From the NCBI GenBank assembly GCA_015067585.1, contig SVMC01000006.1, positions 1 to 64,000 of the forward strand: a stretch of DNA of 64,000 bases. The letters run 5' to 3'. Position numbers and translations under genes: made by a program. The notes below the pieces were generated by a model. The model was not told where the DNA came from. It did not search any database and worked only from the letters and a program-made list of their open reading frames with translations. Origin of the DNA: Oscillospiraceae bacterium. GTDB lineage: Bacteria; Bacillota; Clostridia; Oscillospirales; Oscillospiraceae. How positions within the stretch are numbered: position 1 is the first letter of the stretch; every line of letters begins with the position of its first letter. This document shows, one piece after another, positions 9,165 through 42,539 of the stretch.

Positions 9165-9420
9165 AGTCCCGGCTCCCTGCCGGGTGCGTGAAGGGCCCAC
9201 TTAAACCCACATTTTATTCACGGGATGCTGTACTTCTTATTCGGATTGCAGGCCTCCCGCCTGTACTTTGATACAGCGCGGACGTTGGAAGCAGCGAAGA
9301 ATGAGAGAGGCGACCCACCTGCCATTTTGTGCAGGTTATAACTGGGTTCTCACGGCCATGGTGGGGGCTCTCAAAAAGCCGGATGGCAGCATGTCAGCAT
9401 ATGATGTGCTGCCATTTTTC
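9165..9420 (+). ncRNA. ssrS: 6S RNA (SsrS-like) candidate
   Basis: Noncoding interval between DUF1292 and rpsT with strings resembling clostridial 6S RNA (CCCACTTAAACCCACATTTT; GCGACCCACCTG...CAGGTTATAACTGGGTTCTCACGG), ending in the hairpin GGCAGCA..TGCTGCC followed by TTTTT. Boundaries approximate. Confidence 0.6.
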
Positions 9421-16625: not shown

Positions 16626-16730
16626 TTTGCATTCTCCTTTGCAAATTAAAAGATAAGACGAGCAATTTGTTTTCGGCCATAAATGCACCTTCTTTCAATG
16701 GTACTGTAACATAAGATGTTGCGTTTTTCA

Positions 16731-16897
16731 ATGATATATCGCTTGCGCAATATGATATACGGCGATGCCGTATGATATATTTGCGAAGCAAATATGATAT
16801 AATATCCGTTCCCTTCATATGCTGAAGGCATATATCATCCACGATAGTGGATATCATATCGAAGATATATCACCCGGTCCGAGAGGAACGGATATCA
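16731..16897. repeat. Cluster of small hairpins separated by ATGATAT(A) linkers
   Basis: ATACGGC-GAT-GCCGTAT; ATATTTGC-GAA-GCAAATAT; ATATGC..GCATAT; ATCCAC..GTGGAT; ATATC-GAA-GATAT; outer arms ATATCCGTTCC (16802-16812) and GGAACGGATAT (16885-16895). Confidence 0.8.
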
Positions 16898-16901
16898 TTG
16901 T

Positions 16902-16940
16902 AAAAAGCCTGATTTGTCGGTCGACAAATCAGGCTTTTTA
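16902..16940. terminator. Bidirectional-looking terminator downstream of the tRNA-Ser pair
   Basis: AAAAAGCCTGATTTGTCG GT CGACAAATCAGGCTTTTT, 18-bp perfect stem. Confidence 0.85.
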
Positions 16941-32830: not shown

Positions 32831-33829
32831 ATGGCACTGTTTGAAAGCTACGAAAGAAGAATTGACAAGATCAACGGCGTTCTCGCACAGTACGGCATCG
32901 CTTCTGTGGAAGAGGCTCGTGAGATCTGCAAGGAAAAGGGCTTTGATCCCTACGAAATCGCAAAGAGCATCCAGCCCATCTGCTTTGAAAATGTATGCTG
33001 GGCATACTGCGTAGGCGCAGCCATCGCCATCAAGTCCGGCGTGACCAACGCCGCTGACGCTGCCGAGGCCATTGGCCTGGGCCTGCAGGCATTCTGCATC
33101 GACGGTTCCGTCGCCGAAGACCGCAAGGTCGGTATCGGCCATGGCCGTCTGGGCGCTATGCTCCTCCGTGACGACACCAAGTGCTTCGCATTCCTGGCCG
33201 GTCACGAATCCTTCGCAGCCGCTGAAGGCGCAATCGGCATCGTCCGCAACGCCAACAAGGCCCGCAAGGAGCCCCTGCGCGTTATCCTCAACGGTCTGGG
33301 CAAGGACGCTGCACAGATCATCTCCCGTATCAACGGCTTTACCTATGTTCAGACCCAGTTCGACTACTTCACCGGCGAGCTGAAGGTCGTCAAGGAAATT
33401 CCCTACTCCACCACCGAGCGTGCCAACGTTCGCTGCTACGGTGCTGATGACGTCCGCGAAGGCGTTGCCATCATGCACGCAGAAGGTGTTGACGTTTCCA
33501 TCACCGGCAACTCCACCAACCCCACCCGCTTCCAGCATCCCGTTGCAGGCACCTACAAGAAGGAATGCATCGAGCAGAACAAGAAGTACTTCTCCGTTGC
33601 ATCCGGCGGCGGCACCGGCCGTACCCTGCATCCCGACAACATGGCAGCTGGCCCCGCTTCCTACGGCATGACCGATACCATGGGCCGTATGCACAGTGAC
33701 GCTCAGTTCGCAGGTTCCTCCTCCGTTCCCGCTCACGTAGAAATGATGGGCTTCCTCGGCGCAGGCAACAACCCCATGGTTGGTATGACTGTTGCTGTCG
33801 CTGTTGCAGTCGAAGAGAGCCTGAAGTAA
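32831..33829 (+). CDS. GGGtGRT protein
   Basis: Contains SVASGGGTGRTLHPDNMAAGPASYGMTDTMGRMH; start MALFESYERR at 32831. Confidence 0.9.
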   Translation: MALFESYERRIDKINGVLAQYGIASVEEAREICKEKGFDPYEIAKSIQPICFENVCWAYCVGAAIAIKSGVTNAADAAEAIGLGLQAFCIDGSVAEDRKVGIGHGRLGAMLLRDDTKCFAFLAGHESFAAAEGAIGIVRNANKARKEPLRVILNGLGKDAAQIISRINGFTYVQTQFDYFTGELKVVKEIPYSTTERANVRCYGADDVREGVAIMHAEGVDVSITGNSTNPTRFQHPVAGTYKKECIEQNKKYFSVASGGGTGRTLHPDNMAAGPASYGMTDTMGRMHSDAQFAGSSSVPAHVEMMGFLGAGNNPMVGMTVAVAVAVEESLK

Positions 33830-33922
33830 GCAAATTGCGACCTTTGCGCTCCCATGGGTAAAGTGGCAACCTGCCACCGGCAGGTTGCGAGGATTTCTAC
33901 TCGCAATGCTTTGCATTGCTCA
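33830..33922. repeat. Hairpin-rich element between two copies of the GGGtGRT 3' end
   Basis: GGCAACCTGCC-ACC-GGCAGGTTGC, GCGAG..CTCGC, GCAATGC-TTT-GCATTGC. Confidence 0.65.
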
Positions 33923-33979
33923 CCCATGGTTGGCATGACTGTTGCAGTTGCAGTTGCTGTTGAAGAAAGCCTGAAGTAA
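33923..33979 (+). pseudogene. Second copy of the GGGtGRT C-terminal codons (PMVGMTVAVAVAVEESLK*)
   Basis: 57 bp aligned to 33773-33829 with 7 differences, all third-position synonymous. Confidence 0.85.
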
Positions 33980-34150
33980 GATTATCTTACAGTAACCAAT
34001 ATCCCGGCTCATTTCGAGCCGGGATATTTTTTATGCAAGAACTATTCGCATAGAATGTTACGGAATTTATATATATCCTTATTCTCCCATTTGCCTTTTC
34101 CCCAACTTCATGATAAACTTAGGGTGACAAATCTGACAGGATGTGACACT

Positions 34151-35434
34151 ATGAAGATCAACACCCGCAATTTGCCCTATGAGGAAGTATTGAAGCTGCC
34201 GCGGCTACAGCACCGCGATCCCAGAAAGCCGAGTCGGTTTTTGGCTACGGTGGTTCGCATCGCTTCCATGCCTACGCTGCTGAAGACGAAATTCACCTAT
34301 ACCACAGAGCGCATGGAGCAGGTAGCAAAGCAGCCCTGCCTGATCCTGATGAACCACTGCAGCTTTACAGACATGAAGCTGGCTTACGGCATTTTCTATC
34401 CCAGGCCCTTTGGCATCGTGACCTCGGTGGATGCCATGTCCGGCTTTCTTGGGAAACTGATGCGCTTTCTTGGCTGTGCGCCCACCCACAAGTATATCAC
34501 GGATCTTTCTGTGATCCGGGATATGGAGTATATGCTGAAGAAGAACAAGACAAGTGTCTTGATGTACCCGGAGGCGGGTTACTCCTTTGATGGAAGAGCC
34601 ACCGCGTTGCCACGGAAGATGGGGGTTCTGATGAAGAAGCTGGGTGTCCCTGTGGTGACGGTCATCACACAGGGTGCCTTTGCCAGAGATCCGCTTTACA
34701 ATATGCTGCAGATCCGGGATGTGAAGGTCAGCGCCCATGTGAAGTGCATCGCCACGGCGGAAGAAGTCAGGGAAAAGACCGTTGCCGAATTGGACGCACT
34801 GCTTGCCGAGTCCTTCTCCTTCGATAATTTCGCATGGCAGAGGGACAATCAAATCTCCATCGATGTTCCCTTCCGGGCAGACGGCCTGCACCGCATTCTC
34901 TACAAGTGCCCCCACTGCGGCACGGAAAATGAGATGGAAGGCAAGGGCATCCACCTGACCTGCCATGCCTGCGGCAAAAAATGGGAAATGGACGAGTACG
35001 GACAACTATCAGCCTGCGAAGGGAAAACAGAATATCCCCATATCCCGGACTGGTACACATGGCAGAGGCAGTGCGTCAGAAAAGAATTAGAGGATGGGAC
35101 ATATCTTCTTGACACCGATGTGGACATTGCCGTTCAGGTGAATTTAGATGGTGTGTGCATGATCGGACAGGGGCATCTGACCCACGATCAGAACGGTTTC
35201 CATCTGACCGGTGGGGAAGGGAAGCTAAATTATCAGCAATCCGCACTGGCATCTCACACACTTTACTCCGATTACTACTGGTACGAGATCGCCGATGTGA
35301 TCGGTATCGGTGATAACGAATTCTCTTATTTCTGCTTCCCAAAAACAAAAACCTCCGTCACCAAGGCAAGATTGGCAACAGAGGAACTGTACAGGATGAA
35401 AAAGTATAATCGAAAACCGATAGCTGCAATTTGA
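34151..35434 (+). CDS. 1-acyl-sn-glycerol-3-phosphate acyltransferase-like protein with a C-terminal zinc-ribbon segment
   Basis: LILMNHCSFTDMKLAYGIF (NHxxxxD), MYPEAGYSFDGR; CPHCGTENEMEGKGIHLTCHACGKKW; start MKINTRN at 34151. Confidence 0.8.
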   Translation: MKINTRNLPYEEVLKLPRLQHRDPRKPSRFLATVVRIASMPTLLKTKFTYTTERMEQVAKQPCLILMNHCSFTDMKLAYGIFYPRPFGIVTSVDAMSGFLGKLMRFLGCAPTHKYITDLSVIRDMEYMLKKNKTSVLMYPEAGYSFDGRATALPRKMGVLMKKLGVPVVTVITQGAFARDPLYNMLQIRDVKVSAHVKCIATAEEVREKTVAELDALLAESFSFDNFAWQRDNQISIDVPFRADGLHRILYKCPHCGTENEMEGKGIHLTCHACGKKWEMDEYGQLSACEGKTEYPHIPDWYTWQRQCVRKELEDGTYLLDTDVDIAVQVNLDGVCMIGQGHLTHDQNGFHLTGGEGKLNYQQSALASHTLYSDYYWYEIADVIGIGDNEFSYFCFPKTKTSVTKARLATEELYRMKKYNRKPIAAI

Positions 35435-41399: not shown

Positions 41400-41540
41400 A
41401 GTGGATGTGTGCTATAATAATGGTGTCAGACAGGCTGATCCGGCTCGTTGCATTGTTTTGCACAACTGATTTGGATTACGATGCATTTGAGCGGTCTATC
41501 GGATGGATTATTGACTATTTCAGGAATCGAGGTGCTTTCT

Positions 41541-42539
41541 ATGCAGTTTGATCGGGATTGTCCGCTGGTTTTGCGTGAGTTTCTTTCTTATCACGAAAAC
41601 ATCAAAGCGCAATCAAAGAAAACCATTTCAGAATACTATTTGGATCTTCGGATGTTCCTTCGTTTCATTGTTCTGATCAAAAATGAAATGCCGTACCATA
41701 CCGACCTTGAGACCATTTCCATTCGTTCTGTCGATACAGACCTTCTTCGGACGGTCACGGTGAACGATATTTATGATTTCCTTTCTTATCTTGCCAATGA
41801 TCGTGTCAAAAACCCGGACTCCATGTCGAAAGAGATCGGGATCGGTTCTGCGGCCCGGGCCAGAAAACTGTCTTCCATCAAATCATTCTACAAATATCTG
41901 ACGGTGAGAACACGGCAGTTGGAAGAAAATCCCGTCAAGGATCTGGAATATCCGAAGCTGCGCAAGTCTCTGCCCAGATATTTGACCTTAGAACAGTCCA
42001 GAAGGCTTTTGGAGGCTGTGGAAGGCATGAATTCTCAGCGCGACTTTGCGATTCTGATGATCTTTCTGACCTGTGGGATCCGCATCAGTGAGCTTGTGGG
42101 ATTGAATCTGTCTGATGTATACGATGATCGCATCCGTGTTGTGGGCAAAGGCAACAAAGAACGCGTGGTCTTCCTTGGCACCACCTGCCGTGAGGCCATC
42201 GATGCCTATTTGCCCATCCGAAAGAAGCTTGTGCTGACGGATGACCGCGCTTTATTTGGCAGCCGGGACCATAACCGCATCAGTGTATCAGCGGTACATC
42301 GCTTGGTGAAAAAGCACCTTCTGGCGGCAGGTCTGGACGCAAGCCAGTTTTCCGCCCACAAGCTGCGGCATACTGCCGCCACCATGATGCTGTCCGGTGG
42401 CGTGGATGTGAAGACGGTGCAGGAAGTTTTGGGCCATGAGAATCTCAATACTACCCAGATCTATACCCACATTGAGAACACAGAATTGCAGATCGCAGCA
42501 AGAGCAAATCCAATTTCTCAATTAAAGATCGAAAAATAA
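41541..42539 (+). CDS. Tyrosine recombinase (XerC/XerD-like)
   Basis: LTCGIRISELVGLNLSDV; HKLRHTAATMMLSGGVDVKTVQEVLGHENLNTTQIYTHI (RHRHY set). Confidence 0.93.
   Translation: MQFDRDCPLVLREFLSYHENIKAQSKKTISEYYLDLRMFLRFIVLIKNEMPYHTDLETISIRSVDTDLLRTVTVNDIYDFLSYLANDRVKNPDSMSKEIGIGSAARARKLSSIKSFYKYLTVRTRQLEENPVKDLEYPKLRKSLPRYLTLEQSRRLLEAVEGMNSQRDFAILMIFLTCGIRISELVGLNLSDVYDDRIRVVGKGNKERVVFLGTTCREAIDAYLPIRKKLVLTDDRALFGSRDHNRISVSAVHRLVKKHLLAAGLDASQFSAHKLRHTAATMMLSGGVDVKTVQEVLGHENLNTTQIYTHIENTELQIAARANPISQLKIEK

Follow-up and report, generated by a model that had tools for sequence, protein, structure and literature searches.

A duplicated GGGtGRT gene tail suggests a recurrent attachment site for mobile DNA in related gut bacteria

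Sequence comparisons suggest that mobile DNA has repeatedly used the 3' end of the GGGtGRT protein gene as an attachment site in related gut bacteria. The case that is described here lies in a 64,000-nucleotide stretch of contig SVMC01000006.1 from an Oscillospiraceae bacterium (the window), in which the gene is followed by a second copy of its own tail. The tail that presently completes the gene was probably imported by an integrating element and the second copy would be the older host tail that this element displaced.

The GGGtGRT gene occupies positions 32831–33829 of the + strand (PF14057, E = 2.6e-194) and ends in tail copy 1 (33773–33830, + strand), which consists of its last 19 codons and one further base. 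Tail copy 2 (33923–33980, + strand) is without a gene body. Together they form the one direct-repeat family detected within 33000–34400, with a length of 58 nt, an identity of 88% and a spacing of 150. An initial annotation of the window had described a tail duplication with silent differences only, and the comparison bears this out. The seven substitutions fall in codons 4, 8, 9, 10, 12, 13 and 15; all are at third positions and silent, and both copies translate to PMVGMTVAVAVAVEESLK followed by a stop codon. When seven substitutions were placed at random, all were silent in 12 of 300,000 trials (about 4 in 100,000). The accompanying proposal that both tails had been under coding selection in the past is also supported. 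A terminator-like inverted repeat with a T run, located by a repeat search, follows copy 2 (33993–34033, + strand), while none follows copy 1 ahead of the spacer hairpins. By eye, this terminator-like hairpin is similar to that which follows the single tail in a genome of the same genus (G001, locus L006). G001 could not be used as an empty site since downstream synteny with the window was not found.

The recurrence of such tails was examined by searching the 33-residue C-terminus of the GGGtGRT protein against 394 genomes of the order. The C-terminus was matched in 248 genomes, 35 of which gave two or more matches. Weak matches, matches within long unrelated frames, genes truncated at contig ends and a single extra full-length gene were then set aside. 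By a hand count, at least 27 of the 247 other genomes with the tail have a stray copy of it within a short open frame. A like search with the C-terminus of the upstream neighbouring gene matched 243 genomes exactly once each and returned no stray tail (0 of 243). Since this control gene shows none in 243 genomes, duplicated tails are peculiar to the GGGtGRT gene end. Most displaced tails in the relatives start either at VEMMG or at GNNP, a pattern expected of site-specific recombination. The initial annotation had held that replacement drift in the second tail of relatives would count against its interpretation; a comparison of the gene tail with the first displaced tail at 13 loci instead gave 47 silent and 5 replacement codons (hand-summed). 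In one of the relatives (G422), the two tails are only 63 bp apart and differ by ten silent and no replacement changes. Because gene tails and displaced tails differ mainly silently, the best reading is that copy 1 was imported and copy 2 is the older of the two. Silent-only divergence would be expected if each tail had once formed the true end of the gene in a previous host.

In relatives, elements with an integrase are found at this very gene end, and the control gene is negative. In about ten independent loci, a tyrosine integrase (PF00589) starts 100–180 bp behind the GGGtGRT gene. The domains matched in these adjacent integrases are the generic Phage_integrase and SAM-like ones, and the integrases that were compared share a mutual identity of 37–91%. 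The tail-flanked elements are 1–16 kb in length and are sometimes stacked, up to four deep. In G416, five tails surround four stacked elements of about 1.0, 16, 3.5 and 2.4 kb (L167, L168; G416:C126:2807-25751). Two integrases immediately follow a tail; the first element has no integrase and encodes a TIR-domain protein instead. Stacked elements are also found in G485 with three tails. In G055 (L022 232-1250; G055:C24), a barnase-like ribonuclease (PF00545) and a Barstar protein (PF01337) are located between the gene tail and the displaced tail. The integrase of G006 (PF00589) lies about 130 bp downstream of the GGGtGRT gene. The displaced tail of this genome, which has four silent differences, lies on a different contig, at the border between mobile-element-like genes and chromosomal ones (labels assigned by eye from the translations). 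A closely related site integrase was not found in the draft genome from which the window derives; its two tyrosine recombinases match at 26–29% only. An Xer-like tyrosine recombinase encoded within the window (41448–42539), 8 kb downstream, is unlikely to be the responsible integrase, as it is about 13–26% identical to the site integrases that were compared.

Taken together, a mechanism may be proposed in which the 3' end of the GGGtGRT gene serves as the attB for elements with a tyrosine recombinase. The attachment site of the element would itself bear a copy of the last codons of the gene, kept translatable through selection in earlier hosts. Integration would fuse the chromosomal gene body to the tail of the element (copy 1) and thereby restore the reading frame, and the old host tail, namely copy 2 with its terminator, would be shifted to the far end of the element, here 150 bases downstream. 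In the window, it is the upstream repeat that completes the GGGtGRT gene, and the direct repeats include the gene 3' end. Copy 1 is taken to be the imported copy because of its position and because the terminator behind copy 2 resembles that of G001 by eye; the action of a recombinase in the source genome is likewise presumed. Of the two explanations offered by the initial annotation, an insertion at the gene end that carried a replacement tail is the one that is supported. The 93-bp spacer between the tails may be what remains of a larger element that decayed, or it may have been a miniature element from the outset. Some observations sit less easily with this mechanism. There is no integrase or other gene between the tails, 93 bp offering no room for one, and the recombinases of the source genome are only distant matches. 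Both tails are present, yet copy 2 starts at PMVG, further inside the tail than either boundary in relatives: 8–9 bp in from GNNP and about 36 bp in from VEMMG. The mechanism therefore requires that the end was trimmed or that there is an additional crossover point.

Of the cases found that retain a spacer, the one in the window is the smallest. Three adjacent hairpins had been reported to separate the tails, and they are indeed present in the 93-bp spacer (33830–33922, + strand), all on the + strand. Hairpin 1 (33866–33888) includes a 21-nt core, CAACCTGCCACCGGCAGGTTG, hairpin 2 (33889–33902) is weak with a 3-bp stem, and hairpin 3 (33903–33919) has a 7-bp stem. As RNA, the spacer has a folding energy of -39.7 kcal/mol, compared with a mean of -26.1 (sd 3.0) for shuffled sequences. 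When the start of copy 2 is included, the energy becomes -47.2 kcal/mol as RNA and the fold has a z-score of -5.5 as DNA. In this fold, the 8-nt arm CCATGGGT (33852–33859, + strand) is the perfect complement of ACCCATGG (33922–33929), which spans the junction and the start of copy 2, and the outer stem so formed encloses the three hairpins. This particular 8-mer was present in 30 of 20,000 spacer shuffles; the arm sits within a near-palindrome (CCATGG). At the gathering score, no Rfam 15 family was matched in the spacer or in the elements at tRNA gene ends described below. Elsewhere in the window, a 6S RNA was identified at 9171–9371 (RF00013, 70.3 bits).

The initial annotation had also advised a search of the same genome for the spacer at other gene ends. 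The complete spacer does not recur, being single copy, and it was ruled out as a dispersed repeat. The central 21-nt hairpin does recur, with three exact occurrences beside tRNA genes. In inverted orientation, the core is identical to hairpins beside tRNA-Lys and tRNA-Gly genes and two bases removed from a hairpin beside a tRNA-Ser gene; with up to one mismatch, it is absent from all others among 120 genomes of the family. These hairpins belong to elements of roughly 100 nt with the order tRNA tail, terminator, inverted tail copy, three hairpins and second tail. In the source genome they are located at L189 1197-1610 (tRNA-Lys), L187 1357-1798 (tRNA-Ser) and L192 1371-1616 (tRNA-Gly), and in relatives at L200 (tRNA-Arg), L201 (tRNA-Ala) and L202 (tRNA-Ser). 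A second tRNA tail is present in most of these loci, that of the tRNA-Gly element being barely recognisable, and two of the loci have tandem copies of 180–188 bp. A covariance model (R1) built on four tRNA-end elements identified 12 elements in three genera, with 8 of the 12 beside tRNA genes. Both sides were changed in 27 of 31 base pairs, and 95% of the alignment cells pair as opposed to 33–48% with slid partners. This covariation supports a conserved shape for the elements in the model, with no function implied; the claim is limited to shape because the structure guided the alignment and because covariation in palindromes can also come about through mutation. As separate observations, a chain of short hairpins with ATATCAT-like linkers lies behind two tRNA genes on the - strand of the window (16700–16930), and similar ATGAAAT-linked chains follow the GGGtGRT tails in L048, L060, L075, L176 and L180.

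The layout of the window spacer matches that of the tRNA-end elements, with an outer arm (8-bp stem), three hairpins and a displaced target tail in the same order. With this resemblance in mind, the 93-bp unit may instead be a miniature element that entered as a complete unit with the help of a recombinase in trans, perhaps by way of a folded single strand with the outer stem as its attachment site. Such an event agrees with the attachment-site reading with respect to the tails and differs on the nature of the spacer. It is a plausible explanation, if a less probable one, and it draws on the identical 21-nt hairpin at duplicated tRNA 3' ends of the same genome, on the covariance model with its doubly changed pairs, and on the closure of the outer stem exactly at the start of copy 2. 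However, hairpin 1 of the window is inverted relative to the tRNA-end elements, and R1 gave no match in the orientation of the tail and a modest one on the - strand only (E = 0.0025). The window also has no terminator behind copy 1, and the near-palindromic setting of the arm counts against this reading as well. The mobility of these elements is putative; mutation can also preserve hairpins. A broader proposal, which is rather doubtful, is that Oscillospiraceae harbour a gene-less foldback family of about 100 nt that inserts site-specifically at the 3' ends of both tRNA genes and protein genes and is mobilised in trans, with the window as its protein-gene member. Its members would be built from an inverted target arm, three structure-conserved hairpins and a displaced target tail, and would use a folded single-stranded attachment site.

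The remaining explanations do without an integrating element. Replication slippage or template switching at the hairpins could have copied the gene end with no recombinase, and the palindrome-rich spacer and the short spacing would suit such an event. Two loci from Treponema/Spirochaetaceae (L102 4966-5215 and L103), in which a tandem array built from a tail-like repeat, an inverted copy and a hairpin overlaps with the end of the GGGtGRT gene, offer a similar picture. A fresh copy, however, should be identical or drift blindly with respect to the code, which makes seven silent changes out of seven improbable, and the 1–16 kb elements between the tails of relatives would be left unexplained; slippage is thus an unlikely source. 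The other explanation put forward by the initial annotation, a collapsed tandem paralogue in which nothing but the tail of a second GGGtGRT gene survived, can be set aside as very improbable. Two once-functional genes would fit the silent-only divergence, but two full genes in tandem were not encountered in the order. The sole extra full-length gene seen in relatives (G387) is on another contig. Moreover, the stray tails of relatives lack a gene body, begin at common positions and border integrated elements, and the neighbour with which the GGGtGRT gene forms an operon-like pair has no stray tails. Misassembly has to be considered since the source genome is a draft metagenome assembly (66 contigs, 82% complete), but it is scarcely credible given that a like arrangement occurs in many independent assemblies and that the spacer sequence is found nowhere else in the assembly.

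Under the attachment-site reading, the gene end appears to be a frequently used and apparently unreported integration hotspot in gut Clostridia, situated inside a conserved protein gene, whose stacked elements carry TIR-domain, barnase/barstar and other cargo. Because insertions leave behind a second and usually silently different gene tail, the hotspot could be used to find cargo systematically. The tiny structured elements at tRNA ends are, in turn, overlooked by ordinary annotation. In the titles and opening lines of abstracts of the literature searched, GGGtGRT was not found reported as an integration site, and no match was found among work on folded attachment sites and miniature integrative elements. 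The mechanism of integration is already known; neither its target gene here nor the miniature elements appear to have been described.

With respect to known systems, folded single-strand recombination sites are exemplified by integron attC and CTX phage attP, in which an outer stem of target-like sequence surrounds further hairpins; the window spacer resembles them in shape only, and neither an integron integrase nor an attI or dif target was seen. Palindromic repeats of the REP/MITE type are short, non-coding and hairpin-rich, with few copies per genome at random intergenic sites. The present elements are likewise short, non-coding, hairpin-rich and few per genome, but they occur at the 3' ends of genes whose tail is duplicated, and most are beside tRNA genes. 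A close parallel is with integrative conjugative and mobilizable elements (ICE/IME), for which a tail-replacing integration scheme is established and which integrate at the 3' ends of housekeeping protein genes such as streptococcal rpmG, guaA and rplL, among others (PMC4701971, PMC5704250). The likeness extends to a tyrosine integrase adjacent to the gene end, to direct repeats that contain the gene 3' end and to an upstream repeat that restores the gene. The window differs in that the repeats lie just 93 bp apart with no integrase between them, and in its target gene, GGGtGRT. In CIME and accretion arrays, attachment sites outlast the integration and transfer genes and elements become stacked (PMC5704250). 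Attachment sites may similarly have been retained here, and the stacked elements of G416 correspond to such an array; the window case, however, is far smaller than a gene-bearing CIME and is set apart by its structured spacer.
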